Assembly (NCBI GenBank): GCA_947474995.1
Contig: CANJNJ010000019.1
Span: 1 to 49,123, forward strand
Origin: Opitutaceae bacterium
GTDB lineage: Bacteria; Verrucomicrobiota; Verrucomicrobiia; Opitutales; Opitutaceae
DNA: 49,123 nucleotides
Direction of reading: 5' to 3'
Of the stretch, positions 1 to 35,905 are shown piece after piece (the stretch's first letter is position 1; every line of letters begins with the position of its first letter). A model generated the notes under the pieces. It had not been told where the DNA came from and made no database searches. It worked only from the letters and a program-made list of their open reading frames with translations. A program made the position numbers and the translations under genes.

Positions 1-1023
1 CTTGCCGCCGACATTCGCCTCGAACAGCACCGGGACCTGGCAGGAATCCCAATCGTGGAGGTCGTGCGGTGTGAATTGGAAGTGCCACTTCAACTTCCCG
101 GTATCGGGATCGAGCGCGACCACCGAGTTAGCGTAGAGATTGTCGCCCGGACGATCGTCACCGTTGTAGGACGGCCCCGGATTACCGGTGCCCCAGTAAA
201 TCGTATTCAAAGCGGGATCGAATGTCCCGGTCACCCAGGTGGCGGCGCTGCCGGTTTTCCAACTGGCGCCTCCTCCCCAGGTTTCGTTGCCCGGTTCGCC
301 CTTGGCGGGGATGGTATAAAACCGCCAGACGCGCTCGCCAGTCTTGGCGTCGTAGGCATCGAGGAAGCCGCGAATGCCGAATTCACCGCCGGCGATGCCC
401 ACGATGATCTTGTCCTTCAGCGCCAGCGGCGCGCCCGTCGTCGAATAGCCCAGCTTGTAATCGATCACGACCTTGTCCCACCGTTCCAGTCCCGTGTTCG
501 CGTCGATGCAGACGAGGTGCGCGTCGAACGTATTAAAGTAGACGGCATCACCCAAGACGGTGACGCCGCGATTATTCGTGCCACAGCAAACCGGCGCGTC
601 CTCTGGAATCGCCGGCCGGCGGTAGTTCCACAGCGGCCGACCGGTCCGCGTGTCGAGGGCCGTGACGATATTCGGTCGCTCCGTGATATACATGATGCCG
701 TCGACCACGATCGGCGTGACTTCCCACTTGCTCGCGTCGCCCGACTGGTAAACCCACATCGTTTTCAGGTTCGCCACGTTCGCCGGCGTGATCTGCGTCA
801 GCGTGCTGTGGCGCTGCCCCGAGTAGTCGCCGCCGTAGGTGAGCCAGTTGCCCGGTTCATTGCGGGAATTGAGAATTCGTTCGTAGCTGAGCTGCGTTCG
901 ATTCTGGGCGAGGGCGACGGTCCCGAGGCCGACAGCCAGGAGGCCGAGGGAGAAGGGACGGAGGAGGCTGAGCCAACGCGGCGGCAGGACGCCGCGCCGA
1001 GAAAGGGTCGCAGGGGAAGACAT
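1..1023 (-). CDS. PQQ-type quinoprotein dehydrogenase, copy 1 (partial, 3' end outside window)
   Basis: The N-terminal 341 codons of an exported beta-propeller quinoprotein; the C-terminus lies beyond base 1. The start is the ATG at 1023-1021, chosen because it gives a signal peptide (hydrophobic run LRPFSLGLLAVGLGTVALAQ) directly before the mature start, as in the two paralogues at 2156 and 12840. Visible quinoprotein landmarks are NEPGNWLTYGGDYSGQRHS, the vicinal cysteine pair in VCCGTNNRG, GELGNETWG-like tryptophan repeats, and GDNLYANSVVALD followed by TPHDLHDWDS. Members of this family oxidise alcohols or aldehydes in the periplasm and pass electrons to cytochrome c. No heme motif is present in this part, which fits the separate cytochrome c gene just upstream at 1127-2128. 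Whether PQQ is really bound cannot be told from sequence alone. Confidence 0.9.
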   Translation of the reverse strand, partial: MSSPATLSRRGVLPPRWLSLLRPFSLGLLAVGLGTVALAQNRTQLSYERILNSRNEPGNWLTYGGDYSGQRHSTLTQITPANVANLKTMWVYQSGDASKWEVTPIVVDGIMYITERPNIVTALDTRTGRPLWNYRRPAIPEDAPVCCGTNNRGVTVLGDAVYFNTFDAHLVCIDANTGLERWDKVVIDYKLGYSTTGAPLALKDKIIVGIAGGEFGIRGFLDAYDAKTGERVWRFYTIPAKGEPGNETWGGGASWKTGSAATWVTGTFDPALNTIYWGTGNPGPSYNGDDRPGDNLYANSVVALDPDTGKLKWHFQFTPHDLHDWDSCQVPVLFEANVGGK

Positions 1024-1126
1024 GGGAGATGAAAATTAAGATTGGAGGGGGAAGATCGGAGGACCTGGACCGACGCAGCGCCGGACCAAAGCCCCGGCAC
1101 CACCGACATCGGATCGGCCGGAGTTC

Positions 1127-2128
1127 CTACTCGCTGGTCGCCAATTGCTTTTTTCCGCGGAGCGATACGAGGTAGGCAATCACGTCGTCCAACTCTGCCG
1201 GCGAGAATAAACCCGCGTACACCGGCATGGGGGACTCGTTCTTGGTCACGACGAGCTCGGCGAGCTCCGACTTGTGGAAAGACCAGATGGCGCCAGTCAT
1301 GTCGCGCAACTGGACCGAAAAAGTATTCTCGTTGATCCGGACTCCGGCGACGGACTTGCCGTCCTTCGTCTTGGCGCGAACGAAAGCGAAATTCAGCGGC
1401 ATGCTGATCTCGATGCGAGTCGGGTTATAAGACTGCGGAACGTCCGCTCCCGGCTCGACGAGGGCCCGCCGCAGGAACGCCGGGCTCCGCCGCGCGCCGA
1501 TTCCGGTCAGGTCGGGACCGATGGCGGCCAAGCCCTGGCCGTCGAGCGTGTGGCACGTCAGGCAAACACCCCTGGTCTTGAACAGTTCGGCGCCCTTGGC
1601 GGGATCACCCGGAACCTTTTCAATCGGCATCCGCCCGAGGGAACGCACGTAGGCGGCGAGATAGGGCGCCTCGCCCGGCTTCAATCGCCCGCCTGGCATC
1701 TCGGTCCCGGGCAGTCCGCGGGAAACAATCTGCATCAAGCTCACATTGTCGCCGGCGCGCGGCAGTTCTGGCTGAGCCAGCGTGGGCCCACGGTCGCCCT
1801 CGCCCTTCGGCCCGTGGCATTGCACACATTGGGTCTCGAAGATTTTCCGGCCAACGGCCAGTTCACTCGGGTTGGCGATGATTTTCTCCAGATCCGTCGC
1901 CAGTTCGGCGGCACTGGGGCCCCGACCACCTTGGGCCGCGGGTGCGGCAGCTCCGTTCGCGGCAGCGCCCCCGCCCCCTTTGCCACGACCCGGCCCTTTC
2001 TTTTGGGTCTGGTTGGGAGTGGGCCCGGCCTTTTCGGCGGCGGGGTCGGCATGGTCCTGGGCTCGCAGCGAGAGAGCTGCAAAAGCGAGCAGGGCGCAAA
2101 GGATACGGGGCGATTTGAAAGCGTACAT
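1127..2128 (-). CDS. Exported di-heme cytochrome c, copy 1
   Basis: A 333-residue periplasmic electron carrier with two c-type heme sites, CVQCH (residues 101-105) and CLTCH (189-193). Candidate axial methionine is in PGTEMP (about 142-145). A signal peptide covers residues 1-23 (ending LRAQ). A Lys/Gly-rich linker (about 43-70, PGRGKGGGG) precedes the first heme domain. The C-terminal third (about 215-325) has no heme and ends with a cytochrome-like helix (ELDDVIAYLVSLRGKK). It lies between two quinoprotein genes on the same strand with short gaps, so it is probably their electron acceptor. It is clearly paralogous to 11860-12813, including the order of domains and the linker. Confidence 0.92.
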   Translation of the reverse strand: MYAFKSPRILCALLAFAALSLRAQDHADPAAEKAGPTPNQTQKKGPGRGKGGGGAAANGAAAPAAQGGRGPSAAELATDLEKIIANPSELAVGRKIFETQCVQCHGPKGEGDRGPTLAQPELPRAGDNVSLMQIVSRGLPGTEMPGGRLKPGEAPYLAAYVRSLGRMPIEKVPGDPAKGAELFKTRGVCLTCHTLDGQGLAAIGPDLTGIGARRSPAFLRRALVEPGADVPQSYNPTRIEISMPLNFAFVRAKTKDGKSVAGVRINENTFSVQLRDMTGAIWSFHKSELAELVVTKNESPMPVYAGLFSPAELDDVIAYLVSLRGKKQLATSE

Positions 2129-2155
2129 GGGTGCGAAATATTTTTGGGGAAAGAA

Positions 2156-3820
2156 TTACAACCCGAAGACAAACAGGCCGGCGCCGATCGCCACCGCGAT
2201 GCGCTGCTTGCCTTCAACCAGGAAGGTGATGATGCCGCCGCCGATGCGACTGCCGCCGGGATAGTTCCATAGCAGTTTGCCGGTCGCGGCTTCGACCGCA
2301 TACAAGTCACCCTCCGCCGTCCCGCTGAACACGAGCCCGGTGACCGTGGTCAAAACGTTCGCGCCGGACTTGTTCCTCATCTTAAATTCCCACATGGTCT
2401 TGCCCGTGCTCCCATCCATCGCGCGAAGGATGCCGACGGGCTCTTCACCCAGCACATTCCGACCGCCGCCATTTTCGAAGTGGCCGCCGACCTCGTAGGG
2501 TCGAGGTGTCTTGACGTAGGTCTGGCCGAAATCGGTACCCGTGTTGACGTAGACCATGCCGGTCAGAGGATTAAACGCGGGGGCCGCCCAGTTGGAGTTC
2601 CCGCCCAATCCCGGGTAAACGAGGTTGCCCTCGGGCGTGGGTTCGGTGCCCGGCAAGACGACCGGCCGGCCGTGATCATCGAGTCCCTTGGCCCAAGTCT
2701 GCTTCGCATAGGCGCCGCCGGAGACGAATTCACCGTTGGCGCGATCGAGCGCGAAATAAAACCCGTTGCGATTGGTGAACGACAGCATCTTGCGCGGCTT
2801 GCCGTTGACGTTGGCTTCGAACAGCACGGGCACCTGGCAGGAGTCCCAATCGTGGACATCGTGGGGCGTGAATTGGAAGTGCCACTTCAACTTGCCGGTG
2901 TCGGCATCGAGCGCGACGACGGAGTTGGCGTAGAGGTTGTCACCCGGACGATCGTCGCCGTTGTAGTCCGGACCGGGATTGCCCGTGCCCCAGTAGATGG
3001 TATTTAAAGCGGGGTCGAACGACCCGGTCACCCACGTGGAAGCGCCGCCGGTTTTCCAGCTGTCGCCCACACCCCAGGTTTCGTTGCCGGGTTCGCCCTT
3101 GCCCGGAATGGTGTAGAATCGCCAAGCCCGCTCACCCGTCTTGGCATCATACGCATCGAGGAAGCCGCGAATGCCAAATTCGCCCCCGGCCACGCCCACG
3201 ACGATCTTGTCCTTCAAGGCCAGTGGCGCGCCGGTCATCGAATAGCCCAGATGGTAATCGATGACCACCTTGTCCCATCGTTCCAGGCCCGTGTTGGCGT
3301 CGATGCAGACGATGTGGGCATCGAAGGTGTTCAGGTAAACGGCATCGCCCAGGACGGCGAGGCCCCGGTTATTCGTGCCGCAGCAAATCGGGACATCCGC
3401 CGCGAGGGCCGGCCGGCGATAGGTCCAGAGCGGTCGGCCGGTCTTGGCGTCGAGCGCGGTGACGATATTGGGCCGCTCGGTTATGAACATGACGCCGTCG
3501 ACCACGATCGGGGTGACCTCCCATTTGACGGTCTCCGCCTGCTGATAAACCCACAGCGACTTCAAATTCGCCACATTCGCCGGCGTGATCTGCGCCAAAG
3601 TCGAGTACCGCTGGGCCGAGTAGTCGCCGCCATAGGTCAGCCAATTGCCCGGCTCATTGCTGGAGTTGCGGATTCGCTCGTAGGGAACCTGTATCCGTGT
3701 CTGGGCTTGGGCGGCAATCCCAGCACCCAAAAGCAGCAGGCCGAGTGCGGCGGGGCGGAGGAAGTTAAAGCACGCCAGACGGGAAATGGCGGGATGCAGG
3801 CGGGTCGAGGATGCAGACAT
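2156..3820 (-). CDS. PQQ-type quinoprotein dehydrogenase, copy 2
   Basis: A complete 554-residue exported quinoprotein. The frame stays open to 4006, but the ATG at 3820 is preferred because it places a signal peptide (PAALGLLLLGAGIAAQAQ) near the N-terminus, matching copies 1 and 3. Propeller landmarks are NEPGNWLTYGGDYSAQRYS, the vicinal Cys pair ICCGTNNRG, GDNLYANSVVALDADTGKLK and TPHDVHDWDSCQ. The C-terminus closes with RIAVAIGAGLFVFGL. There is no fused cytochrome domain, so electrons must leave through a separate carrier, probably the di-heme protein encoded 27 bases downstream. Likely periplasmic oxidation of an alcohol or aldehyde; the substrate is unknown. No Shine-Dalgarno-like sequence is obvious. 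Confidence 0.92.
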   Translation of the reverse strand: MSASSTRLHPAISRLACFNFLRPAALGLLLLGAGIAAQAQTRIQVPYERIRNSSNEPGNWLTYGGDYSAQRYSTLAQITPANVANLKSLWVYQQAETVKWEVTPIVVDGVMFITERPNIVTALDAKTGRPLWTYRRPALAADVPICCGTNNRGLAVLGDAVYLNTFDAHIVCIDANTGLERWDKVVIDYHLGYSMTGAPLALKDKIVVGVAGGEFGIRGFLDAYDAKTGERAWRFYTIPGKGEPGNETWGVGDSWKTGGASTWVTGSFDPALNTIYWGTGNPGPDYNGDDRPGDNLYANSVVALDADTGKLKWHFQFTPHDVHDWDSCQVPVLFEANVNGKPRKMLSFTNRNGFYFALDRANGEFVSGGAYAKQTWAKGLDDHGRPVVLPGTEPTPEGNLVYPGLGGNSNWAAPAFNPLTGMVYVNTGTDFGQTYVKTPRPYEVGGHFENGGGRNVLGEEPVGILRAMDGSTGKTMWEFKMRNKSGANVLTTVTGLVFSGTAEGDLYAVEAATGKLLWNYPGGSRIGGGIITFLVEGKQRIAVAIGAGLFVFGL

Positions 3821-4015
3821 AGGGGAAAAACTCAAAATACGAGGTTGGCGCTCGCCGTGGAAAGCCGCGAGAGCCCTAGCGGGGACAAACGAGCGAAAGT
3901 AAACTAGGATAATATCGAGAAAGAAATCGAGCCTGAGATCCAGCGCGAGAACGGAAAAACTGTCCGGCACTTTGGTTTTGCTCTCAACCCTCGGTTCCTC
4001 TGACACAGCGCCTGG

Positions 4016-4082
4016 TTTGTAGTCCCGCCTTTAGGCGGAAGTCTTGTGCTGGTCGGATTCCGCCTAAAGGCGGAACTACAAA
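4016..4082. repeat. Intergenic dyad repeat, family 1, copy A
   Basis: An imperfect inverted repeat whose outer arms are TTTGTAGT (4016-4023) and ACTACAAA (4075-4082). Each arm carries a smaller palindrome, CCGCCTTTAGGCGGA and TCCGCCTAAAGGCGGA. Related copies lie at 30989, 43409 and 45860. It sits between the TonB receptor and the quinoprotein gene downstream of it. Confidence 0.8.
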
Positions 4083-4146
4083 CGGATCGGTTTCTTCCTC
4101 TCTGAAGTAATACACGTTTTGCGATCTTGGGCGTCAGTGTTGCGGC

Positions 4147-4212
4147 AAAAAAAAAGGCCGCTCGCCTCCGGTGGACGATTGCCGTGGGCAATCGTGGCGG
4201 AGGGAGCGGCCC
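4147..4212 (-). terminator. Rho-independent terminator of the TonB receptor gene
   Basis: Read on the minus strand, this is a long GC-rich hairpin 24 bases after the receptor stop codon, followed by a run of nine U residues (A tract 4147-4155). Arms pair GGCCGCTC (4156-4163) with GAGCGGCC (4204-4211), then CCTCCG with CGGAGG, then ACGATTGCC with GGCAATCGT around a three-base loop. The strength of the hairpin suggests the receptor transcript ends here and the quinoprotein at 2156-3820 has its own promoter. Confidence 0.88.
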
Positions 4213-4235
4213 GAATTCTTATCCGACAGCGGAAA

Positions 4236-7200
4236 CTAGAAGTTAAACTTCGCCGTGAGCATGTAATTCCGCGGCACTTGGAAGTTATAGCTGCCAGGGA
4301 TACTCATGACGCCAATATTCGAGATGTCGTTGTTCCGCGGAGCGAGAACAAGACTGTTGGCGGTCGAATTGCTGGTCGTGCTGTTCTCCATGATGGGCTT
4401 GGACAGATTGAACAGATTGTCGATCGCCAGATCGAACTGGATGGTCCGAGGGGCAAAGCGGCTCTTGGCCTCCTTGATCCGATAGGTATACGAGAAATTC
4501 GCGGTGCCCTTGGTATAGCCGCCCGCCCACAGGTAGGAGGTGGCACTGGCATACGGGGCCGGAATCGTCTTGGCCGGATTGTTGGGATCGGCGACCGTGT
4601 CACCGGTCATCGAGCCAAGGATCTGCGGTCCCCGATAATTGATCGCGAGGCCGGCACGCAGACCGTTCAGGAAGCCGCTCGAGAACCGGTAGTCGGTGGC
4701 GACGTTACCACTGATCTGGGGTCCACCCTGCCCTGCACCAGCCTGGCGAGAAGGGGTGGAGGCCGTGAGCAGGATGGAGGGAACGGTGGTATTCACCCAT
4801 GAGTTCCAACCATTGATCGAAGTCTGCAGGCGGGTGACATTGACCTTCGTCGGATCGTTCAGAGCCGGATTGATGAAAGCCTGTCGGTTGGCATCAATCA
4901 GGATACCGCCGTCGGCCAGAATCTGGCGGAGCAAAGGATCTTTATCCTTAATCCAGCCCGGGACTTCGGGGGTGACATCCTTTTGCAGCGCCTTGTTCGT
5001 GCCGATGTTGACGATCAAGCGCCACTTGCTGGTCAGATTGGCCGTCATTTCCGCCTCATAGCCGCTCGTTTCGGCCGTGAGGGTGGAGAACACATTCAGG
5101 CCCGGGAACCGGCCCAAGCCGCGAACATTCCGGCCACCTTCGCTCAAATCACCGATCACGGGCGTATCGGAGATATCATTCACGTTCGTGCGCAGGCCGC
5201 CCGGCGTGTTGTAAGCCTGACCCTTCTGGAAGGCCTTGTACCAACCCAGCGAGATATTCATCCGGCCGTTGGGCAGGGTGTAGCGGATGCCCGCGTCGTA
5301 GCTTTGCGACGACGACGGAGGAATCAGCTGCTGGTTGACGTCCTGATTTCCGACGTTGAGGTCGAAAGTCGTGCTGTTGTTGGCGTAGATGCCGAACCCA
5401 TGGGCGATATTGACCACGGCACCGTAGGTCCGCGTGTTGACTCCGGACTTGAGGTCCGGCGGGCTGTAGTCGTCTTGGAACTTGTCGCCGGCATATTGGG
5501 GGGCGGGAACCGCGACACCGTTGATGATGTTACGCGGCCGCTGATTCGCGGGAATCAGCCCGGCCGTCGCCACGCCGGCGGCGTTCTTCGGCACGTACTG
5601 CAAATTCCAGTATTCGGACGGAGCCGTCGGGCGGTATGTCCGGGAAACCCCATCCCAATTCGCAGGATTGTCATACGACTGGGTGAAGAGCTGATCATGC
5701 AACAAGGTGACATCCCGGCGGAATGCGCCAATCAACACCAAGTGGTTCTTGAACATGTTAAAGTTGGCGACGGCCTGCACGAATTTGTAGTGCTTCGAAA
5801 GATTATCCGTGCTGCCCGGCCGGTTCGGCTGAATGAACCACTTCGGGGTTAGGGACGCCCGCGTGCCACGCTGGAAGTCATTAACCGTCATGGGGACGCC
5901 ATCGAGCGGATGCAGGCTGGCCAGTTTTCCACGCAACGCGGTATATTGCCGCGTGTAGACCGACTGGAGGTTCAAGTCCGGCGCTTCGAAGTAGCCCCGG
6001 ATATCCTGCCCCGGAGCCACACCCTGATAGAGGGGAAGTTCGAAGAAATACTGCCGATTCTTCAATTCCAAGTTCTGGATGCCGCCCATCAGGCCGGTCT
6101 GCAGTTTGCCCCACTTGGTGTCCTTCACATACGCAACCTGCAGGTTGGTATTCTTGTAATAAGGATCCTTTTCGAACGAGAACGGCGAATTTTCCGAGTA
6201 CGCCTGCAGGAAATAGGGATTCGGCGAACCGTCCGGCTTCGTCCGATTGATGTCCACCTGCATGTTGTACATGCCGCCCGCGGCCGGGTATTCGGTCCAA
6301 CGATCGACTTGATTAGCGTCACCCGACCATTCGATGAACATCCCCTCGAACGGACGATACGTCACGTAAAGGGAGACATCCTTGCCCCGTTCCTTACCAC
6401 TCGGATATTTGCGGTCATCATCCCAGAGCGGGGTGAAATTCTTGTAGGGCAGAATGAAGTTGGGGGCGCCACGGTAAACAGCGGCGAAGCGGTCGGGAAC
6501 GTCCCAGACCTCGGTCATGCTCATGCCGCCGATGTTGACGCCGACGCTCTTGATTTCCTTGCCATTGAGGAAACCCGGCGTGGCCGAACTCTGAACGGCT
6601 CCTCTGGTCACGAAAAAGTTCTGTGTGTTGTACGCAGCCCGGGGATTATCGGGGTCCACCGTGAAACGCTGGGTCTGACGCACGACACCCGCCGCGGCCA
6701 TCGCCGCGGCCGACATGTTCGCATCGAGGCCGGACGGCATGAACTTTCCGTCCCACCCGGACGTGTTGTCCTTCGAACGATTGGTTCCGGTGTTCTTGTC
6801 CGTCGTGCGATACTCGAAGTCGGCCCGCACAGACAATTTGGGCGAAATATTGGAGGTGGCGGCGAGGGAGATACCTTTCCGCATTTCCCACTCGTGCTGC
6901 CGCCAGGTCTTGCCGTCGGACCACAAGACGTTCGCCCGTACGGCGGCCTTGTCGGACAGCGGCTGATTGACGTCGGCGGTCAGGCGATAGCGGTCCCAGC
7001 TTCCGTACTGGGCCCGAATTTCCTGAATCGGTTTGTTGGTCAGTGCCTGTTTGGTGACCGTGTTCTGGGTGCCGGCAGCGGCGCCGGCGCCGAAGAGCGA
7101 GGCATTGGCGCCGCGCGCAAAGTCGATGCGATCGATATTGTAGGCATCTCCCGCGATTGAATACGGGAAAAAGTTGTGCGTCGGGGTGTTGGAGCTCTGC

Positions 7201-7583
7201 CCGCGGATGCGCACGACCACCGTGGTGTTACCGGAGGTGCCTTGCAGACCGTCATTCTGATACTGGTTCGTGTTGACGGAAAAATCCGCCGCCTTGCCCG
7301 CATCATTGATGTTGAACGCCTCGAGGAATTCCGACGTCAGGACGGAATAGGCGACCGGCGTATCCTTCAGCGCGGTCGTCATGCGACCACCGGCGAGGGA
7401 ATTGGCGGCGACAAAGCCGACATCGGATTCAGCACTGACCTTGAACGGGTCGAGTTTAACGGTGCTATCCGAGCCAGCACTTGCGGCGGCAGCGGGCGCG
7501 GTCTGGGCGAATAGCGATTGGACGCCGAGGCCCATAAAGGCAGCCGCGACGGCAAATCGTATTTTGGTGGATGGTTGCTTCAT
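4236..7583 (-). CDS. TonB-dependent outer-membrane receptor
   Basis: A 1115-residue outer-membrane active transporter. A signal peptide (about 1-27, ending LFAQ) is followed by a short linker with VKLDPFKVSAES (42-53), the conserved N-terminal stretch of the large Verrucomicrobia receptors. A plug domain follows (about 65-185), with ALKDTPVAYSVLTSEF, VVRIRGQSS and IDRIDFARGANASLFGAG. The rest is a long beta-barrel rich in aromatic and Asn residues. The protein ends in Phe (YMLTAKFNF), the usual outer-membrane assembly signal. The plug is canonical, but there is no N-terminal signalling domain. Placed among quinoproteins, cytochromes and NIF3-like proteins, it probably imports their substrate or a cofactor. 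A 475-base gap upstream and a strong terminator downstream suggest a single-gene transcript. Confidence 0.95.
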   Translation of the reverse strand: MKQPSTKIRFAVAAAFMGLGVQSLFAQTAPAAAASAGSDSTVKLDPFKVSAESDVGFVAANSLAGGRMTTALKDTPVAYSVLTSEFLEAFNINDAGKAADFSVNTNQYQNDGLQGTSGNTTVVVRIRGQSSNTPTHNFFPYSIAGDAYNIDRIDFARGANASLFGAGAAAGTQNTVTKQALTNKPIQEIRAQYGSWDRYRLTADVNQPLSDKAAVRANVLWSDGKTWRQHEWEMRKGISLAATSNISPKLSVRADFEYRTTDKNTGTNRSKDNTSGWDGKFMPSGLDANMSAAAMAAAGVVRQTQRFTVDPDNPRAAYNTQNFFVTRGAVQSSATPGFLNGKEIKSVGVNIGGMSMTEVWDVPDRFAAVYRGAPNFILPYKNFTPLWDDDRKYPSGKERGKDVSLYVTYRPFEGMFIEWSGDANQVDRWTEYPAAGGMYNMQVDINRTKPDGSPNPYFLQAYSENSPFSFEKDPYYKNTNLQVAYVKDTKWGKLQTGLMGGIQNLELKNRQYFFELPLYQGVAPGQDIRGYFEAPDLNLQSVYTRQYTALRGKLASLHPLDGVPMTVNDFQRGTRASLTPKWFIQPNRPGSTDNLSKHYKFVQAVANFNMFKNHLVLIGAFRRDVTLLHDQLFTQSYDNPANWDGVSRTYRPTAPSEYWNLQYVPKNAAGVATAGLIPANQRPRNIINGVAVPAPQYAGDKFQDDYSPPDLKSGVNTRTYGAVVNIAHGFGIYANNSTTFDLNVGNQDVNQQLIPPSSSQSYDAGIRYTLPNGRMNISLGWYKAFQKGQAYNTPGGLRTNVNDISDTPVIGDLSEGGRNVRGLGRFPGLNVFSTLTAETSGYEAEMTANLTSKWRLIVNIGTNKALQKDVTPEVPGWIKDKDPLLRQILADGGILIDANRQAFINPALNDPTKVNVTRLQTSINGWNSWVNTTVPSILLTASTPSRQAGAGQGGPQISGNVATDYRFSSGFLNGLRAGLAINYRGPQILGSMTGDTVADPNNPAKTIPAPYASATSYLWAGGYTKGTANFSYTYRIKEAKSRFAPRTIQFDLAIDNLFNLSKPIMENSTTSNSTANSLVLAPRNNDISNIGVMSIPGSYNFQVPRNYMLTAKFNF

Positions 7584-8058
7584 GGTGTAGGTCTTCTTAG
7601 GTGTGGGATTCAGTCTGGTGTTTAGGTTCGGAACAAAAAAAGGGGGACCGCGCCGATTTCGACACCGAGCAGGTCTTGCTCTAGGTTATCGGTTTTCCTG
7701 TGACCGAATAGCCCATTGGCGTCCAGTCGCGGTCAACCAAAGGGGCCAACCCATAACACAGCGCTTCATGCAGCCTCTTTGTAGTAGGCGTGCAGGAAGG
7801 AACGAAGAAACTGTCAGCGCTTGGGAAGGGTGCACGAGGAAGCTGGTCCTAGGGATAGGCAGGTGGGGAAAATCAACTTAGAGATCCAGAAAGCAAGAAT
7901 TAAATCCTCCCGTCGGCCTGCGCGGATTTCGTCTGAACCCCGAGTTCCGTCAGGGCAGCCAAGGCGACAAGACGTAACGTGGTGAAAGGTTGCTTCTGGG
8001 AGTCTTGGCTTTGATTCACGCGAAATTCCTAACATCGAGCGCCTCAATAAAACCGCCT
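7584..8058. other. Non-coding gap upstream of the TonB receptor
   Basis: 475 bases without a supported gene. It must hold the receptor promoter, and perhaps the 3' end of the NIF3-like transcript. I looked on the minus strand for sigma-70 boxes. TTGACC (7736-7731) is the only good -35-like hexamer, but the best partner 18 bases away matches the -10 consensus at only three of six positions, so I do not call a promoter. Small ORFs here show no family features. Confidence 0.5.
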
Positions 8059-8949
8059 TCACGCAATCCACAACTTGTCGTAGGTCTTGATGTTTATGAC
8101 TTTTATTCCCGGCGCCACCGTGGGAAGCCAATCCGTGAACTCCGTCATTCCGGCCTCCTCGCCGACTTCGTGCGCAATGAGAATCATCGCCACTTTTCGC
8201 CCGGATGTCGTCAAGTCACGGACATATTCAATGGAATCCACTTCCCGCGCCTCGCTGGTGATGATGGCCTCCACGTTCTCGGTAAACGCCGTGGCGTTGC
8301 CTTCCAGCGTGTGCGCCCCGCGCCCCAACGTCGTCACCACGATATTCGGGTCGCCGACGATGCGGATGCTTTTCGACTCGAGCTTCGTCGCCAGGTGTTT
8401 CGCGATATCGCGAACGGTCATCGGCGGCAGCTTATAGGTCCGCCCGCCGGGGCCCGTGACGTATTTTTCCCAGCCGAGCGTCTTGGTCAGTCCGGTCGCC
8501 ATGGGCTCGGGCCGATACAGATGCCAGTGATCGTGGATGCGCCAGACCACCATGTGGTTCTTTTCGACGTAGGCCTTCTTGAGCTGATAGAGCGGCTCAT
8601 CCAGCACGGCATCGGTGAGGGTATCGGGGTCGCTCCAAAAGGTCGGCTCGTGGGAGATGACAAAATTCAGCCCCGCCGCATGGGCCCGCTGAATTACGTC
8701 CAGGGTCGACATGAAGCACGAGGCGACGCCGGTGACGACCGTGTCCGGATTCCCGGCTTTGAACGTATCCCGGTAAGAGTCTTCGTTCCAGCTGCTCACG
8801 ACCTTGCCCTTGATGAGATCAACCAGCTGCCGAGCGGTGAGGCCGGAGGTCGGTGTCTGGGCGGGCAATCGGCTGCCGAGCAAAGTCGTGGTGCCAAGCA
8901 AGGCCGCGCCCTGCACAAAGCGCCGGCGCGTAAGATTCGGTGAATTCAT
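8059..8949 (-). CDS. Tat-exported NIF3-like (DUF34) metal-binding protein
   Basis: A 296-residue protein with a Tat signal (TRRRFVQGAALLGTTTLLG, about 7-25) and a NIF3/DUF34 fold. NIF3-family proteins are toroidal hexamers with a dinuclear metal centre, usually cytoplasmic. Candidate metal ligands in family order are H100-E101 (ISHEPTFW), the His/Asp cluster RIHDHWH (137-143), and H260 with E264 (IAHEVGEEAG). The early segment DTFKAGNPDTVVTGVASCF matches the NIF3 start (normally a GDPxxxVTGV pattern). It lies 18 bases after a paralogue (8968-9882) on the same strand and was probably co-transcribed with it. Hydrolase activity on a small cyclic substrate is plausible but not shown; export of this fold is the unusual part. 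Confidence 0.85.
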   Translation of the reverse strand: MNSPNLTRRRFVQGAALLGTTTLLGSRLPAQTPTSGLTARQLVDLIKGKVVSSWNEDSYRDTFKAGNPDTVVTGVASCFMSTLDVIQRAHAAGLNFVISHEPTFWSDPDTLTDAVLDEPLYQLKKAYVEKNHMVVWRIHDHWHLYRPEPMATGLTKTLGWEKYVTGPGGRTYKLPPMTVRDIAKHLATKLESKSIRIVGDPNIVVTTLGRGAHTLEGNATAFTENVEAIITSEAREVDSIEYVRDLTTSGRKVAMILIAHEVGEEAGMTEFTDWLPTVAPGIKVINIKTYDKLWIA

Positions 8950-8967
8950 GGAAAATCGTTCTGGTGG

Positions 8968-9882
8968 TTACGCTACGCCGAGCGAGAACGGTTCCTCTGA
9001 CAGTATCGCCGACACCGGCACCTCACTGACCAAGGCCTTGATCCACGCGGCCATCTCCAGGGTGCCGGGTTTTTCTGACGCGGCATGGCCCAACATGATG
9101 AAGGCCTTGCCCGACCCAGCCGTGACCCAATCTTCGTAGAAGGGAAAAACCTCCCACTCGCAGGACTCGCCGCACACGACCACGTCGGCCTTCGTGGAAC
9201 GCACCATTTGCAGGGCGTCGGGCACCGTCAAGTAACCGGGCCGCACGACGACCCGGGAGACTGTCGCGTTCGGGTCGCCGAGCACCCGCATCGCGCGCAA
9301 CCCGAGCGAACTCTTGATCTGGGCCGCCAGGCCGCTGAGTCGTCCCGCCGGCAGGGCGTAAACTCCGGCCCCCACCAGCGACACGCGCTCGCTCGCCGCC
9401 AGATCCTGCTGTTTCGCCCAACCCAAAGCGCCAGCCAAGCCGCGCAAGCGGGGTTGGGTCGGCAGCGACAGCCAGTTCTCGCTGAAGCGCCAGAGGATCA
9501 ATCCGTGGTCTTCGATATATTTCTTCTTGAACTGGTACAGGTCGGTATTCTCCGCCCTCAGCCCGGGCAACGGGCCGGCGCCACGGCCCCCGCCCTTGGC
9601 CGCGCGGCCGCCGTTCGGCCCCGCGGACGGGACGCGAGACGAAGCCCGTCCTCCACCGCCACCGCCGCCCTGCCCCGGCCAGTAAGGCGATTGCACCGTG
9701 ATGACCAAATTCTGTTTGGATTTCACGGCCTGTTGCAAAACGTCCAGGGACGGCGTCCAGGCGGTCGCGATCCCCGTAACCGGATCGGTTGGCTTTCCCG
9801 CCTGGAATCCGTCGGTCCCGGAATTCTTCCAACCGGAGCCGAAATGTTCTTCAATCCGCAGGGTTATTTCTTGGGCTGTCAT
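8968..9882 (-). CDS. Divergent NIF3-like paralogue with Gly-rich insertion and missing metal ligands
   Basis: A 304-residue relative of the protein at 8059-8949, with the same order of segments (GKPTDPVTGIAT, YQFKKKYIEDHGLILWRF, LRAMRVLGDPN, IMLGHAASEKPG). Several metal ligands of its neighbour are replaced: the SHEPTFW region reads VQSPYWPG (63-70) and the IHDHWH region reads FSENWLSL (133-140). Only the C-terminal GH/E pair remains. A low-complexity insertion rich in Gly and Arg (about 70-104) follows the first changed site. The ATG at 9882 overlaps the upstream MBL gene by 32 bases. An alternative GTG at 9948 would add TRRRSVAAVAVG, which resembles a short Tat signal, so export is uncertain. 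It may be a regulatory or structural subunit of a mixed NIF3 complex. Confidence 0.8.
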   Translation of the reverse strand: MTAQEITLRIEEHFGSGWKNSGTDGFQAGKPTDPVTGIATAWTPSLDVLQQAVKSKQNLVITVQSPYWPGQGGGGGGGRASSRVPSAGPNGGRAAKGGGRGAGPLPGLRAENTDLYQFKKKYIEDHGLILWRFSENWLSLPTQPRLRGLAGALGWAKQQDLAASERVSLVGAGVYALPAGRLSGLAAQIKSSLGLRAMRVLGDPNATVSRVVVRPGYLTVPDALQMVRSTKADVVVCGESCEWEVFPFYEDWVTAGSGKAFIMLGHAASEKPGTLEMAAWIKALVSEVPVSAILSEEPFSLGVA

Positions 9883-11782
9883 TTTTTTGAGAATTCGCTC
9901 CACCCCGTGGCCCACGGCCACCGCGGCCACCGACCGCCGGCGCGTCACCGCCGGGGATGGATTTTGTGCCGACCAACGTAATGGACGCCGCAACATCGTC
10001 GACCCGGGACGACCGCACCATCCGCATGCCCGCCGGTCGAACTGAATTGTACATGGCCGCGTCGCCTTCCTTGAGGCCGCGGTTGGCCGCGTCCTGCACC
10101 TGATCGACAAACTCCGCCGCGGTCATCCATTCGGAATTCCTGGCGGTGTAAACCAAGTCGTACTTGCCATCCGTTTTCGCGCGCCATTTCGCCAGGGCGG
10201 CGGAAAAATTCTCCAGCGTATCATTGAGCAGCAATCCGCCATCCGTGGTCTGCCGACCCAACGCGTCCCCGGAAAACAACAACCGATCGGACTCGTCCAC
10301 GAGTGTCAGGCCGAATTTCGAGTGACCCGACAAAGTCGCCACGGAGAAGACGAGCGGTCGGCCCGCGGGATCCTGCCCCAGGCTGATGGAATCACCGTCC
10401 CCAATCGCGACCACCTCGCCCTTCGCCGCCGGCGGTATCGGCATGCCCTTGGGCACGAACACACGCTTCGCCGATGTCTGATTCAACCCGCCGACTTGGT
10501 CTGCATCGTCGCTCAACACCACGACATCCAGCGGCGTCTCGCCGACCAACCGGCGGACCAGTTCCCCCAGCCCGGGCCGGCCCGCGCCGGTGCCGATCAA
10601 CAACGCCCGCGTCGAACCTTTGAAGAGGTAGATCGTCTCCTCGGCGAGGCCGCGGATGAGGTAGAAGTTCGATTTGATCTTCCCCAACTGCGGAAGGATC
10701 CGACTGGGGGAAGAACCGGGCATCTGCACGGCGAGATAAGTTTTCGCCCCTTCCGGACTGATTCGCTCCAAGGAGAAGCAGACGCGGGCCGAGTCGAACC
10801 CACCCCAGACGATTCCCCGGCCGACACCGTACGGCTCGGCGACCAGGGTGCCATCGAAGATCGCATCGGCGACCCGGGCCTGATCCGTCAGATATTGTTT
10901 GTCGACCGGCCGGCCATTCATCGGGGGTTCCTTGCGCCCGCCCGAACTGTTCTGAAAAAAATGCGCCGGCAAGACCGTGAGGTGCTGATACGGAGCCACG
11001 GTGTCCACCACGTGGTGCGCTGACGAAGCGTATTGGGAAATAAACCCGAAATGCGCCCAGACAAACGCCGAGCCCATCGCATCGCCCGTCGCGATCATTT
11101 CATTCTCGCGATCGAGGTACCCGGTGGACCCCGGCGTGTGACAATAGAGGGACACGGCCTCGATGAGGCGTTCGCCCAAATCAATCTTGCCGACCGCGAC
11201 CCCATGCGGGCCGGGACCGCCACCCTCTTTGATCGGGACGTAATTCGCGGGCGCGTTCGCCGGCCAGTCCAGTTCCGGATAGTAAAGCGTGCGATCCGAC
11301 ATCGCACTGTTCTTGCCCGTGTGGTCGCCGTGGCTGTGGGTATTGGCGACCACGAAGTCCACGGGATTGGGCTTCACCTCGCCCGTATTCGTGTGGGCCA
11401 GCAGGTGGCGGACGAGTGTCTTGAGGTCGCTCTTCCCGGCCTCGTCCTGCGTATTTTGGGCGGTGTCGATCAACAACGCCAGGCGGGAGCCCTCCAGCAG
11501 ATACATCGATGAACCCTGCGACGAGGCGGGTCCGGGGAGAAAATTCTCAATGCGCCACGTGCGGTGTCCCTTGGCGTTGGTCGACATCAAGTAGGCCGTA
11601 TCCTGTGCCCACCGGTTGGGCGTCGCGAACGCCGGGAGCGCAACTCTCCCGTCGGCCAACTTTACCTCCGGCAGAAATCCCTGGGCTAGCCGGTAGTATT
11701 CCACGGGCGCGGGGGTGGCCGCGGCCAACGTCATCGGCAGGCCGGAAAAGAAACAGAGTAGGGGAATTATTTTTCGGTACAC
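9851..11782 (-). CDS. Exported tandem metallo-beta-lactamase-fold protein, second domain degenerate
   Basis: About 643 residues from a GTG start at 11782, chosen because it begins a signal peptide (YRKIIPLLCFFSGLPMTLAAA). The frame is open to another GTG at 11857, two bases after the upstream stop, and an ATG lies at 11734. Domain 1 has an intact MBL zinc motif, NTHSHGDHTG (H149, H151, D153, H154), a later CHTPGSTGY histidine, and ATGDAMG. Domain 2 (about 350-570) repeats the fold but reads LSDDADQVGG where the zinc motif should be, while keeping SGHSKFGL and SGDALG. The C-terminus is Gly/Arg-rich (GGRGGRGPRGG). MBL-fold enzymes hydrolyse esters, lactones, thioesters or phosphoesters. It follows a quinoprotein-cytochrome pair and overlaps the NIF3-like gene. 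Confidence 0.82.
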   Translation of the reverse strand: MYRKIIPLLCFFSGLPMTLAAATPAPVEYYRLAQGFLPEVKLADGRVALPAFATPNRWAQDTAYLMSTNAKGHRTWRIENFLPGPASSQGSSMYLLEGSRLALLIDTAQNTQDEAGKSDLKTLVRHLLAHTNTGEVKPNPVDFVVANTHSHGDHTGKNSAMSDRTLYYPELDWPANAPANYVPIKEGGGPGPHGVAVGKIDLGERLIEAVSLYCHTPGSTGYLDRENEMIATGDAMGSAFVWAHFGFISQYASSAHHVVDTVAPYQHLTVLPAHFFQNSSGGRKEPPMNGRPVDKQYLTDQARVADAIFDGTLVAEPYGVGRGIVWGGFDSARVCFSLERISPEGAKTYLAVQMPGSSPSRILPQLGKIKSNFYLIRGLAEETIYLFKGSTRALLIGTGAGRPGLGELVRRLVGETPLDVVVLSDDADQVGGLNQTSAKRVFVPKGMPIPPAAKGEVVAIGDGDSISLGQDPAGRPLVFSVATLSGHSKFGLTLVDESDRLLFSGDALGRQTTDGGLLLNDTLENFSAALAKWRAKTDGKYDLVYTARNSEWMTAAEFVDQVQDAANRGLKEGDAAMYNSVRPAGMRMVRSSRVDDVAASITLVGTKSIPGGDAPAVGGRGGRGPRGGANSQKNDSPRNNPAD

Positions 11783-11859
11783 GAGAAAGCAAGGTATTGA
11801 ACCGCCGACGCCGAGGCGGACCCGATCAGCAAGACGCAACAAACCGGAAAACGACACGA

Positions 11860-12813
11860 CTACGTTTTCTTTCCCCGGAGGGAAACCAGATACGCGAGCA
11901 CATCGTCCAGCTCGGCGGGCGCGAGCAACGCGCCGTAAACCGGCATCGGGGAGGCCTGGTCCTTTTTGAGTTCGGCCAGCTCTTTCTTATAAAACGAATG
12001 GATCTCGCCGGTGACGTCACGAAACTGGATCGAGTACGTGTCTTCGTTGACGCGGATACCGGCGTATTCCTTGCCGGCTTTGGTCTTGGCCCGGATGTAG
12101 CTGAAATTCAGCGGTAGACTGACATCGGCGCGATAAGGCTCGAAGCTCTGCGGGACGTCCGCGGCGGGCTCGACGAGGCTGCGCCGCAAAAACGCCACGC
12201 TGCGCCGCTGGCCGATATTCGTCAGGTCGGGACCAAACGCGACGCCCTGGCCGTCGCGCGTATGGCACGAGAGGCACGCGCCCTTGGTGCTGAAAACCTC
12301 GGCGCCCTTGGCGGGATCACCTGGCACCTTTTCGAGGGGGATCTGCCCCAGCGTTCGCACATAGGCGGCGATGAACGGCGCCTCCCCCGGCTGCAGCATC
12401 ACCCGCGGCATCTCGGTGCCGGGGATGCCGCCCTGAACAATGCGCACCAAACTCGGATCGTCCCCGGCGCGCGGCAGGCTCGGCTGCGCGAGCGTGGGTC
12501 CGCGCGAGCCCTCGCCCTTGGGCCCGTGACACGTCGAGCAGTGGGTCTCGAACAATTTCTGGCCCTTGGACAACTCGCCGGGCGCGGCCATGATTCGATG
12601 CATTTCCGCGACGGCGGCAGCGGGGTCCCCTCCCCGTCCACCCCCGCCTCCGCCACCCTTGCCCCGGCCGGGACCTTGCTTGGCCTGGGCCGCACTCGGG
12701 GCGGGCGTGGTGGCCGCGGCGGCGGCAGCGGCCGTCGCGTCGTTGGTGTGGTCCTGGGCGAGCAGCGAAATCGGGGCGAGCGTGAACAGGAGACAGAGCA
12801 GGCGGGGTTGCAT
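11860..12813 (-). CDS. Exported di-heme cytochrome c, copy 2
   Basis: A 317-residue paralogue of the cytochrome at 1127-2128. The ATG at 12813 gives a signal peptide (LLCLLFTLAPISLLAQ, 5-20). Heme motifs are CSTCH (92-96) and CLSCH (180-184), with a candidate methionine ligand in PGTEMP. Between signal and first heme is a low-complexity linker: an Ala run (about 28-34) followed by GPGRGKGGGGGGGRGG (47-62). The heme-free C-terminal part ends ELDDVLAYLVSLRGKK, as in copy 1. It lies 26 bases downstream of the quinoprotein at 12840-14501, so it is the likely electron acceptor for that enzyme. The next gene follows almost immediately. Confidence 0.92.
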   Translation of the reverse strand: MQPRLLCLLFTLAPISLLAQDHTNDATAAAAAAATTPAPSAAQAKQGPGRGKGGGGGGGRGGDPAAAVAEMHRIMAAPGELSKGQKLFETHCSTCHGPKGEGSRGPTLAQPSLPRAGDDPSLVRIVQGGIPGTEMPRVMLQPGEAPFIAAYVRTLGQIPLEKVPGDPAKGAEVFSTKGACLSCHTRDGQGVAFGPDLTNIGQRRSVAFLRRSLVEPAADVPQSFEPYRADVSLPLNFSYIRAKTKAGKEYAGIRVNEDTYSIQFRDVTGEIHSFYKKELAELKKDQASPMPVYGALLAPAELDDVLAYLVSLRGKKT

Positions 12814-12839
12814 GAGAGGACGCGGTTGCTGCGTTGTAA

Positions 12840-14501
12840 TTACAATCCAAACACGAACAGGCCGGCGCCAATCGCCACCGCGATGCGCTGCTGGCCGTCG
12901 ACCAGGAAACTCATCGGTCCGCCTTGCACGCGGACGCCACCGGAGAAATGCCAGAGTTCCTCGCCCGTCTTGCCGTCGAGCGCGTAGAAATCCCCCTCCA
13001 TCGTGCCGCTGAAGACGAGCCCCGTGACGGTGGAGAGCACCGGGCAGAAGGCGCGCGTCTGCATCTTGTGTTCCCAGACCGTCTTGCCCGTCGTCGCCTC
13101 GAGCGCCTTGAGCACGGTATAGGGCTCCGAGCCAATCAGGTTGACGCCGCCGCCATTCTCGAAGTGCCCGCCCACCGTATACGACCGCGGCTGCTTGTAG
13201 AACGTTTGCCCGTAGTTGTCGTGCGCGTTGACGTAGACCAGCCCCGTCACGGGATTGTAGGAGGGCGACATCCAGTTGGTGCCGCCGCCCAGCCCCGGAT
13301 AGACGACTTTGCCCTCCGTGGTCGGCTCCAGCCCGGGAATAACAATCGGGCGTCCGTGATCGTCGAGCCCCTTGGCCCACGTCTGATTCGTGAAGGCCCG
13401 GCCCGTGATGAACTCCCCGTTCGTGCGATCCAGCACGTAAAAGAACGCGTTGCGGTTGACCTGCACCAGCAGCTTGCGCGGCTTGCCGTTCACCTTGGCG
13501 TCAATGAGCATCGGCACCTGGTTCGAGTCCCAGTCGTGGACGTCGTGCGGCGTGTATTGGAAGTGCCACTTCAACTTTCCGGTATCGGCATCCACCGCGA
13601 CGACCGAGTTGGCGTAAAGATTATCTCCGGGACGATCGTCCCCGTTGTAGTCCGGCCCCGGGTTGCCGGTGCCCCAGTAGACCAAGTTAAGCTCGGGATC
13701 GAAGGTGCCGGTCACCCACGTGGAGGCCCCACCCGTTTTCCAGCTGTCGCCCGGGCCCCAGGTTTCATTGCCGGGTTCGCCCTGGCCCGGGATGGTATAA
13801 AACCGCCAGGCACTCTCGCCGCTCTTGGCGTCGAACGCCTCGACGAACCCGCGAATGCCGAACTCACCACCGGAAACACCGAGGACGATCTTGTCCTTTA
13901 CGGCCAGCGGCGCGCCCGTGATCGAGTAACCGAGGTGATAGTCGATGACGACCCGATCCCACCGTTCGAGTCCGGTGCTGGCATCGAGGCAGACCAGATG
14001 CGCGTCGAAGGTGCAGAGGTAGACGGAATCCCCGAGCACAGCGAGCCCGCGGGTGGGTGTGCCGCAGCAGATGGGGACATCTTCCGGGAACGGCCGCTTG
14101 TAATTCCAGAGCGGACGACCGGTCCGGGCGTCGAGGGCGGTGACGATGTTCGGGCGTTCGCTGATGTAGATCACGCCGTTGACCACGATCGGCGTGACTT
14201 CCCATTTGCTCGTATCCGTCTGCTGGTAGACCCAGAGCGGTTTCAAGTTCGCCACGTTTGCCGGAGTGATCTGCGCCAAGGCCGTGTGGCGGTGACCCGC
14301 GTAGTTGCCACTGTAGGTCAGCCAATTGCCCGGCTCGTTGCCGGAACGCAGAATGCGCTCGTAGGTGACCGGCGCGCGAGGCTCGGCCCGCCCCGTCACG
14401 CCGAAACCCAAGAGCAGCAGGCCCAGGGTCGCCGAACGAAAAAGGCTAAGCGGCAGCAGGGGCGAAACACGGCGGTGACAAAGGATCGAAGTTGAAGACA
14501 T
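12840..14501 (-). CDS. PQQ-type quinoprotein dehydrogenase, copy 3
   Basis: A 553-residue exported quinoprotein. The ATG at 14501 is chosen over the longer open frame (to 14618) because it places the signal peptide (SATLGLLLLGFGVTGRAEP) at the N-terminus. Landmarks are NEPGNWLTYSGNYAGHRHT, the vicinal cysteines ICCGTPTRG, GDNLYANSVVAVDADTGKLK, TPHDVHDWDSNQ, and the C-terminal RIAVAIGAGLFVFGL. It differs from copies 1 and 2 in the substrate-side segments (for example VQVNRNAFFYVLDRTNGEF), so the copies may act on different substrates. It probably starts the transcript that continues through cytochrome, MBL and the NIF3-like genes. Confidence 0.92.
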   Translation of the reverse strand: MSSTSILCHRRVSPLLPLSLFRSATLGLLLLGFGVTGRAEPRAPVTYERILRSGNEPGNWLTYSGNYAGHRHTALAQITPANVANLKPLWVYQQTDTSKWEVTPIVVNGVIYISERPNIVTALDARTGRPLWNYKRPFPEDVPICCGTPTRGLAVLGDSVYLCTFDAHLVCLDASTGLERWDRVVIDYHLGYSITGAPLAVKDKIVLGVSGGEFGIRGFVEAFDAKSGESAWRFYTIPGQGEPGNETWGPGDSWKTGGASTWVTGTFDPELNLVYWGTGNPGPDYNGDDRPGDNLYANSVVAVDADTGKLKWHFQYTPHDVHDWDSNQVPMLIDAKVNGKPRKLLVQVNRNAFFYVLDRTNGEFITGRAFTNQTWAKGLDDHGRPIVIPGLEPTTEGKVVYPGLGGGTNWMSPSYNPVTGLVYVNAHDNYGQTFYKQPRSYTVGGHFENGGGVNLIGSEPYTVLKALEATTGKTVWEHKMQTRAFCPVLSTVTGLVFSGTMEGDFYALDGKTGEELWHFSGGVRVQGGPMSFLVDGQQRIAVAIGAGLFVFGL

Positions 14502-14905
14502 GAGGATAAAACCGAGAAGAGCCGCTTCGCGGGGAACGAATAATTCCGCGCCACGACGAGAAAGATCAAACGGGGGATGAGGCTCGAAGACAGATGATCT
14601 TCTCGTTGGAAATGCCAAGGCAAACCCGTCACTAGGCCAAGCCGTTCGCGCGAAGGCACAACGTGTGGAAGTTTGCCCTGGACCAAGGCAGATAACTCGC
14701 GCAGAGGCGCAAAGGCGCAGAGTTTCAATCCAACAATCCTGTCCAATACCTTCGCCTAGCTAATCCTGGCAATCATCTCACCGCTTCGGGCTCGATCTCT
14801 GCGCCTCCGCGCCTTGAGCGAAGCGAGCGGGAACCCTGGTTTGGATCAGCGCAGCAACGTGGAGAAAGGCTTGGGAACGCTGAAGCCTTTTTGCCCCGTT
14901 TGAAT
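14502..14905. other. Gap holding a dyad repeat (family 4)
   Basis: 404 bases with no supported gene. It contains two imperfect inverted arms about 75 bases apart, 14699-14722 (GCGCAGAGGCGCAAAGGCGC...) and 14797-14820 (CTCTGCGCCTCCGCGCCTTG...), pairing at roughly three quarters of positions. The remainder must include the promoter of the quinoprotein at 12840-14501 and the end of the FGE-like transcript. Confidence 0.55.
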
Positions 14906-15826
14906 CTATTTCTTCGTGCTCGCGGGCGGGGCCGGCGGCGGCGTGGGCTTCGGCGGGACCGCCAGGACCAGGCGCAGGCCGACCCAATCGTTCTGCGTGT
15001 CGCCTGTCGTGCTCCAGCGATTGGTGGAGCTTTCCTGGCCGCGCATCTCGTGATGTGGCCGGATGATGTTGCGATCATTCGCCGAGGGCGGTCCGGCATA
15101 GTCGGTGACATCGACGCCAGGATACCGCGCGTACCAGTCAAAATTCCACTCGAGCGGGTAGCCGTACAGGTCGTAGATGCCCCAGGCGTTCGGCTTTCGG
15201 CCTGCGACCGGATGCGTCGGCAGGTTTGGCTTCGGCCAGTAATAGTCCTGGATGCTCGCCGGTTCTTTATCAGAGCCGGCGCGACACGCGTGCTCCCACT
15301 GCGCTTCCGTCGGCAGCGTGTAGCTGTGACCGACCGGGAGCCGGCCGGCCGTCTGCTCTCGCTCGGTCAGCCAGCGACAGAACTGCAGCGCGTCCTGAAA
15401 ACTAATCCCAACGACGGGGTGCGTGTCGTCCTGGAAAAAACCCGGATTGCGCCAACTGAGCCCGGGACGCAACGGACCGGCCTTGTCGTTCAACACGTGA
15501 AGCCCCACCCCACCGCGCTCGGCCTCGGTGAGGTAACCGGTGGCCGCCGTGAAATAGCTCCATTGGGCGACGGTGACCTCGGTCACGCCGATCCAGAACG
15601 ATTGCGTGAGCGTTACGCGGGTAGCGGGCCCCTCATCGGACTGCGGCCGGGCATTGACCTGGCCCATCACCACGACACCGGCCGGCGCTTTGACGAGGGC
15701 GTAGTGAAGTCCGGGCACCGACATTTTTTCGGCGCCCGCTTCGGCGGCCCCGAGATTTGGGGCGACGAACCCGAGCAGAACAAATCCGATTGAACAAGCG
15801 AACCATCGAGCAGCACGTGGGGTCAT
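14906..15826 (-). CDS. Exported FGE-sulfatase-fold (SUMF1/EgtB/PvdO-like) protein
   Basis: A 306-residue protein with a signal peptide (FACSIGFVLLGFVAPNLGAAE, about 9-29) and one FGE-sulfatase domain. Typical segments appear in order: RVTLTQSFWIGVTEVTVAQW, HPVVGISFQDALQFCRWLTE, YTLPTEAQWEHACRAG, NAWGIYDLYGYPLEW, and WVGLRLVL. The C-terminus is Pro-rich. True formylglycine-generating enzymes need a cysteine pair near the C-terminus; here that region reads RGQESSTNRWS with no cysteine, so sulfatase activation is unlikely. Other members of the fold are oxidases, carbohydrate-binding or signalling proteins. It lies upstream of the quinoprotein operon on the same strand. Confidence 0.85.
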   Translation of the reverse strand: MTPRAARWFACSIGFVLLGFVAPNLGAAEAGAEKMSVPGLHYALVKAPAGVVVMGQVNARPQSDEGPATRVTLTQSFWIGVTEVTVAQWSYFTAATGYLTEAERGGVGLHVLNDKAGPLRPGLSWRNPGFFQDDTHPVVGISFQDALQFCRWLTEREQTAGRLPVGHSYTLPTEAQWEHACRAGSDKEPASIQDYYWPKPNLPTHPVAGRKPNAWGIYDLYGYPLEWNFDWYARYPGVDVTDYAGPPSANDRNIIRPHHEMRGQESSTNRWSTTGDTQNDWVGLRLVLAVPPKPTPPPAPPASTKK

Positions 15827-16784: not shown

Positions 16785-16814
16785 CTCCGGGGCGAACGGC
16801 GGGAAATTTCCCGG

Positions 16815-18137: not shown

Positions 18138-18165
18138 TGCATCGCCGCAGCCGCGAAGCCCATCC

Positions 18166-35839: not shown

Positions 35840-35905
35840 GCACCGTGGAGTGCGGCGCCCGATGAACGCCCGACGTAAGCCGGTGGCTTCACGCTTCCCC
35901 TCGGA

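Follow-up and report, generated by a model that had tools for sequence, protein, structure and literature searches.

Analysis of contig C19, which in its full length of 49,123 bp is the window discussed here and which belongs to the draft genome (5.24 Mb, 96% complete) of an uncultured verrucomicrobial bacterium, suggests that the oxidation-related locus at positions 1-15826 may be a mosaic of separately movable modules, in which a periplasmic pyrroloquinoline quinone (PQQ) dehydrogenase-cytochrome unit is joined by locus-specific accessories, namely an MBL protein and a pair of NIF3 proteins of the XynX type. The arguments for and against this reading are about evenly balanced. What is new here is a NIF3 protein with a twin-arginine translocation (Tat)-type signal beside a ligand-poor partner; pairs of a quinoprotein and a cytochrome are known from elsewhere, though here their number is unusual, and the genome appears to encode many times over a periplasmic enzyme for alcohol or sugar oxidation paired with a cytochrome.

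The ten minus-strand genes of the locus, which a first-pass annotation had described as one run serving one pathway, are open at their predicted positions, and their families were confirmed by Pfam and NCBIfam models with curated cut-offs. In the order of transcription, the gene for an FGE-sulfatase-domain protein is followed after 404 bp by those for a quinoprotein (Q1), a cytochrome (C1, after 26 bp), the MBL protein (107 bp), NIF3b (an overlap of 32 bp) and NIF3a (18 bp); a TonB-dependent receptor follows after 475 bp, and then, 415 bp further on, Q2, C2 (27 bp) and Q3 (103 bp). With gaps of 404, 475 and 415 bp at three junctions and -32 to 107 bp at all the others, spacing divides the ten genes into FGE, Q1-C1-MBL-NIF3b-NIF3a, TonB, and Q2-C2-Q3. 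The FGE-sulfatase-domain protein (14906-15826; PF03781, E 1.9e-38), the tenth member of the presumed run, has a leader (leaders and export signals were judged by eye throughout, without a predictor) and is probably a separate unit.

The window's own genome (G000) was compared with a sister species (G004) and a second sister genome (G005; 580 contigs, 94% complete). The order in G004 is DUF1592-type, HXXSHH-type, NIF3b, NIF3a, quinoprotein, cytochrome, quinoprotein, cytochrome, with no MBL or TonB gene within it; the gap between NIF3b and NIF3a is 18 bp, identical to that in the window, the next quinoprotein gene begins 82 bp further on, and the NIF3 proteins of the two genomes are 58-59% identical. 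The MBL ortholog of G004 (79% identical) is encoded on a different contig, C36, where its neighbours are an amidase and a DUF7133/cytochrome c protein and where a DUF1592 match lies at some distance. The closest relative of Q1 in G005 is 78% identical, and that genome, as assembled, contains no match to NIF3a or MBL. In a tree of 47 quinoprotein rows, 46 of them different (one gene is present twice), Q1 groups with the G005 protein, Q2 and Q3 fall into other subclades, and the NIF3-linked quinoproteins of G004 are not orthologs of Q1. A conserved system of ten genes was rejected after these comparisons, in which MBL, TonB and NIF3 genes are rearranged or unmatched, and a role of NIF3 as a general quinoprotein maturation factor was disfavoured, since G005 has quinoproteins although NIF3 proteins of this type are unmatched there. 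The first-pass annotation had itself named absence of the neighbourhood from related genomes as the outcome that would count against its pathway, and this is largely what was found; its interpretation is partly supported, in that the sub-blocks quinoprotein-cytochrome, TonB-quinoprotein-cytochrome and NIF3b-NIF3a-quinoprotein-cytochrome recur.

Q1 (12840-14501) and Q2 (2156-3820) are members of the PQQ alcohol dehydrogenase family, scoring 530 and 514 bits against TIGR03075 (cut-off 480), and Q3 (1-1023) scores 352 bits as a fragment; the third quinoprotein of the first-pass annotation is present, but only in part, being cut by the contig end. All three hold a vicinal Cys-Cys, a stacking Trp, the metal positions Glu, Asn and Asp, which together are presumably the residues that matter in the site of PQQ alcohol dehydrogenases, and a second Asp (H-D-W-D-S, with D-W-D in Q1). 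Among solved structures, Q1 is best matched by a quinoprotein ethanol dehydrogenase (6zcv/6zcw; 6zcv E 4e-108), which we take to be the lanthanide-using enzyme PedH and which reads W-D-F-D-G in the alignment with Q1. Among 46 rows tabulated from the three genomes, fragments included, the first Asp is found in 46, the second in 45, Trp in 46, Asn in 45 and Glu in 34 (with Asp in 9); of the 45 rows that extend over the Cys-Cys position, 25 have the pair and 20 lack it, which defines two groups of quinoproteins, nearly all of which keep the Asp residues of the metal site. An additional Asp is described as essential for lanthanide binding in XoxF in the portion of the literature consulted (PMC10875860), and by their residues the window quinoproteins are probably of the lanthanide type.

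The predicted recurrence of the quinoprotein-cytochrome unit within the locus was borne out: C1 (11860-12813, with a Gly/Arg-rich linker) and C2 (1127-2128), each with two CxxCH motifs and matches to PF00034 and TIGR02603, are diheme cytochromes encoded 26-27 bp downstream of Q1 and Q2, respectively. Contig C254 of the same genome (3461 bp) overlaps window positions 1-420, the end of Q3, with 94.5% identity, and a diheme cytochrome gene lies beyond the overlap; a third pair, Q3-C3, is therefore possible across the contig end, and in quinoprotein counts C254 might be the same gene as Q3. Of 44 sites with a full-length quinoprotein in the three genomes, 40 show a cytochrome partner, 31 as a same-strand neighbour and 9 as a fused CxxCH domain, and three of the four sites without one lie less than 500 bp from the end of the examined stretch. 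Searches with Q1 match 24, 22 and 17 proteins in G000, G004 and G005 (17, 17 and 11 at 300 bits or more), and a TIGR04528 search finds matches at E <= 1e-60 in 19 of 115 relatives (a count that takes in the own genome), with at least 12 in each of three congeners.

Low-complexity segments rich in Gly and Arg occur in the window at 1127-2128, 8968-9882, 9851-11752, 11860-12813 and 31539-34334, in redox proteins, the MBL protein and NIF3b. Among 441 proteins called on 41 sequences, 18 carry such segments: ten quinoproteins or cytochromes, six DUF1592-family proteins, NIF3b and one protein that by eye is sulfatase-like. This shared composition is a suggestive hint of a link and only that, because the families are interrelated, the sampling focused on quinoproteins, and such segments had already been seen when the pattern was defined.

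The cofactor for these enzymes is probably acquired from outside the cell. None of the 27 genomes of the genus, the own genome included, contains a match to pqqC (a set with no positive control within it), and in a scan of the phylum 7 of 240 genomes match pqqC, 5 of them above the cut-off, the own genome again being without a match. Matches to PqqE fall below the cut-off in 26 of the 27 genus genomes and above it in none, and none of 14 control genomes passes, so this search has no positive control. With about 17 quinoproteins and no pqqC match, the organism probably scavenges PQQ from its environment, judging by gene content; such scavenging by bacteria that do not synthesise PQQ is described in the consulted part of a published account (PMC12124388).

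The two NIF3 proteins both exceed the cut-off of PF01784 (23.4 bits), NIF3a (8059-8949) with 45.6 and NIF3b (8968-9882) with 48.2 bits, and both fall far below that of the Nif3-like hexameric family TIGR00486 (22.9 and 22.4 versus 130.55 bits). A five-member NIF3a profile places XynX of Geobacillus proteiniphilus T-6 (9g9u) closest among solved NIF3 proteins at E 6.3e-77, the next sequence following at 1.9e-12. NIF3a has all seven ligand positions in a variant form (H,E,H,D,H,H,E, arranged as H-E, H-D-H and H-E; the housekeeping copy of the own genome has H,H,H,L,D,H,E), and bears a Tat-type signal, TRRRFVQ in the window and SRRQFLR in G004; therefore at least NIF3a should leave the cytoplasm. 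NIF3b, which carries a Gly/Arg-rich insert, begins MTAQEIT and shows no signal peptide in either genome, so the claim of the first-pass annotation that nearly all the genes encode exported proteins holds for most of them by their leaders, but not for NIF3b. At the ligand positions NIF3b reads V,Q,S,E,L,H,E in the window (two of seven kept) and M,H,N,E,Q,Y,E in G004 (one of seven), while its structure model (mean pLDDT 75) has the DUF34 fold with 9g9u as the top structural match. NIF3b is accordingly read, by its residues, as most likely the inactive partner of the intact subunit NIF3a. Considerably less likely is the proposal that the two form a Tat-exported heteromeric DUF34 complex, in which a XynX-type subunit that binds metal and a hitchhiker with few ligands and no signal would act in the periplasm on the products of lanthanide-type quinoproteins; such a pair would need Tat because a folded NIF3b without a signal would be carried along with NIF3a.

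The part of a review of DUF34/NIF3 proteins that was consulted (PMC8469502) describes the bacterial members as predominantly cytoplasmic and mentions secreted stand-alone YqfO-domain proteins in Pseudomonas. Single NIF3 relatives in three further genomes (G101, G099 and G688) have Sec-like leaders, and most other relatives examined have no leader; it is this contrast with unpaired relatives that suggests a need of the pair for Tat. In searches of the open-access literature we found no extracytoplasmic hetero-oligomeric role of a NIF3 domain and no account of an exported NIF3 protein with quinoproteins; the publications that surfaced for NIF3 with quinoproteins concern hypothetical proteins of Treponema.

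The distribution of this NIF3 type is patchy: NIF3a as query matches 6 of 115 relatives, and the A2 profile matches 39 of 387 genomes of the phylum and 21 of 372 of the order, the own genome and weak matches being counted in each case. Besides the window and G004, 32 NIF3 neighbourhoods were examined (L015-L018, L020, L055-L078 and L205-L207), drawn from the phylum scan (22 genomes out of the 38 that gave a match besides the own genome) and from the stronger matches of the scans of relatives and of the order; some share one genome, some end at contig ends, and the NIF3 protein of L076 is unmatched by blastp. One scan of genome contigs yielded two loci, one from Opitutae and one from Erysipelotrichaceae. 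None of the 32 neighbourhoods has a match to the quinoproteins or cytochromes of the window, and the expected co-occurrence of exported NIF3 proteins with quinoproteins is seen, among the neighbourhoods examined, in the window and G004. Ten neighbours chosen by eye from 40 include two pectate lyase-like proteins and members of the GH94, apiosidase, ThuA, sulfatase, DHDPS and GFO/IDH/MocA families.

The MBL gene (9851-11782, start codon uncertain; PF00753) encodes two MBL-like halves, of which, by eye, the first keeps an intact HxHxDH site and the second has lost it, and its Gly/Arg-rich tail is also present in the 79% ortholog. Placing the start at a GTG near 11782 would give a signal-like leader and a smaller gap to C1, and the ortholog begins with a leader. 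The protein has no solved relative at E 0.01, and its structure model was discarded (mean pLDDT 32.5).

The TonB-dependent receptor (4236-7583) matches siderophore-receptor models, in keeping with its first assignment, but its plug domain scores 22.9 bits, just under the Pfam cut-off of 23.9. Each of the three genomes holds 15-17 matches to this family, some of them fragments, and because of this number the window receptor is less likely to be the single PQQ importer PqqU. The arrangement TonB-quinoprotein-cytochrome occurs in a single orientation at three sites (the window, contig C92 of the own genome and contig C99 of G004). When genes were placed at random (2000 simulations, a distance of 6 kb, a null that disregards contig ends), quinoproteins lay near TonB genes more often than expected in the own genome (3 of 18, P 0.0185; the list of 18 contains one 173-bit fragment) and in G004 (3 of 17, P 0.025); the first of these results is partly circular.

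Taken together, these observations are compatible with the following scheme. Q1, charged with scavenged PQQ, would oxidise an alcohol or sugar in the periplasm and pass electrons through the diheme cytochrome C1 to a terminal oxidase; the exported MBL protein, most likely a hydrolase or lactonase, would open a lactone or ester product; and the XynX-type NIF3 pair would most likely act as a carbohydrate-linked metal protein composed of intact NIF3a and dead NIF3b, the latter carried out through Tat while bound to NIF3a. The genes and their motifs, the pairings, the number of paralogs, the missing pqqC match and the lost ligand residues of NIF3b are observed; we infer the substrate class, the lactone step, the heteromer, its co-export, lanthanide use and PQQ scavenging. 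A sugar substrate is helped, not proven, by three points: the link to XynX; a short open reading frame at 16185-16664, with a leader, whose match to the SMP-30/gluconolactonase family is limited to the end of that family and which is possibly a decayed lactonase; and an IlvD/EDD dehydratase gene at 45973-47892.

Several points weigh against the modular reading and the scheme built on it. The association of NIF3 with quinoproteins rests on two related genomes, with no quinoprotein in the 32 further neighbourhoods, and the NIF3-adjoining quinoproteins of those two genomes are not one-to-one orthologs. The ten NIF3 neighbours noted above, picked by eye and without a random control, also include an arginine decarboxylase and a papain-type peptidase. 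NIF3b, having no signal, may simply remain cytoplasmic, and XynX has been reported to act as a regulator rather than as an enzyme. Two of the three TonB-near quinoprotein sites in the own genome are the window's own Q2 and Q3, the source of the circularity, and the case for scavenging includes a PqqE search with no positive control over the cut-off in a draft genome that is 96% complete.

That the neighbourhood arose by chance, with quinoprotein-cytochrome pairs, MBL, NIF3 pair and TonB receptor as unrelated blocks of a module-rich genome, is unlikely: the three gaps above 400 bp and the rearrangement or lack of MBL, TonB and NIF3 genes at matching places in G004 and G005 would fit it, but the genes from Q1 to NIF3a are densely spaced, two of them overlapping by 32 bp and the NIF3 genes standing 18 bp apart, and the sister species keeps NIF3b-NIF3a-quinoprotein-cytochrome. 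Somewhat less probable is the pathway originally proposed, in which all ten genes act jointly, the receptor importing a substrate that the quinoproteins oxidise and whose product the MBL and NIF3 proteins hydrolyse. The single strand, the prevalence of leaders and the three TonB-quinoprotein-cytochrome sites speak for such a pathway, whereas the three gaps are of promoter size and the unit is conserved in neither sister genome.

Two further explanations concern the NIF3 pair. DUF34 proteins have been proposed as metal insertases in the same portion of the review (PMC8469502), and the lanthanide-type Asp pair is present in all the quinoproteins of the window, so the pair could be imagined as a metal chaperone or insertase supplying periplasmic quinoproteins with calcium or lanthanide; yet this NIF3 type is unmatched in G005, where 11 quinoproteins match strongly, and a quinoprotein accompanies none of the 32 neighbourhoods of NIF3 relatives, which makes this role very improbable. 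A regulatory role, with the pair controlling the locus, has an even slimmer chance: XynX, the closest solved relative, is given there as a negative regulator of xynA (PMC8469502), and NIF3b has no signal, but the Tat-type signal on NIF3a argues the other way. The mosaic of movable modules remains the reading we prefer.

Comparison with known systems places the quinoproteins close to PedH/ExaF and XoxF, with which Q1 and Q2 share a score above the TIGR03075 cut-off, Cys-Cys, Trp, Glu, Asn, Asp-x-Asp and an adjoining cytochrome c; unlike those systems, this one combines the absence of a pqqC match with a diheme partner that has a TIGR02603 domain and with many paralogs, and its lanthanide use is predicted. 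Two paralogs elsewhere in the own genome pass as acido-empty-quinoprotein group A (TIGR04528; 730 and 717 bits), whereas Q1 (536 bits) and Q2 (519 bits) stay below its cut-off of 650 and both keep Cys-Cys. The NIF3 pair is closest to XynX (9g9u) by profile and fold, and carbohydrate-degradation genes adjoin several relatives, but the solved chain has no leader, whereas NIF3a bears a Tat-type signal and stands beside a partner with few ligands. An MBL protein adjoining a quinoprotein recalls the quinoprotein relay MBL families TIGR04558 and TIGR04559; their cut-offs are 300 and 280 bits, and the window protein reaches 17.8 and 15.7, respectively. The pairs of PSCyt/DUF1592 proteins and their neighbours described for freshwater Verrucomicrobia in the consulted part of one study (PMC5615132) have counterparts in two DUF1592-HXXSHH pairs of the window (31539-41166); some other quinoprotein loci adjoin such pairs, and none lies inside 1-15826.

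The surroundings of the locus offer some observations of their own. On the opposite strand and adjoining it, 16728-19844 holds genes for a CitMHS transporter, AtuA and an AtuA ferredoxin-like protein. The two DUF1592-type and HXXSHH-type pairs occupy 31539-35839 and 37316-41166, the second HXXSHH member being assigned by clustering only. Linkage of DUF1592 (PF07631) to quinoproteins within 6 kb was tried and is not significant (3 of 18, P 0.13; 4 of 17, P 0.07). TonB genes lie within 6 kb of DUF1592 genes at 8 of 14 sites in G004 (reached in 0 of 2000 simulations), on contigs C1, C6, C8, C21, C28, C45 and C107, and at 1 of 14 in the own genome (P 0.6). PSD4 matches number 34 in the own genome, 42 in G004 and 36 in G005, and 0, 16 and 14 in three congeners.

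The DUF34/NIF3 family spans superkingdoms and its function is disputed; a Tat-signalled member with a natural ligand-poor paralog, encoded beside enzymes of understood chemistry, constitutes a small, testable system. For the organism, about 17 quinoproteins without a pqqC match would mean that this lineage stakes much of its periplasmic oxidation on the PQQ of its neighbours.

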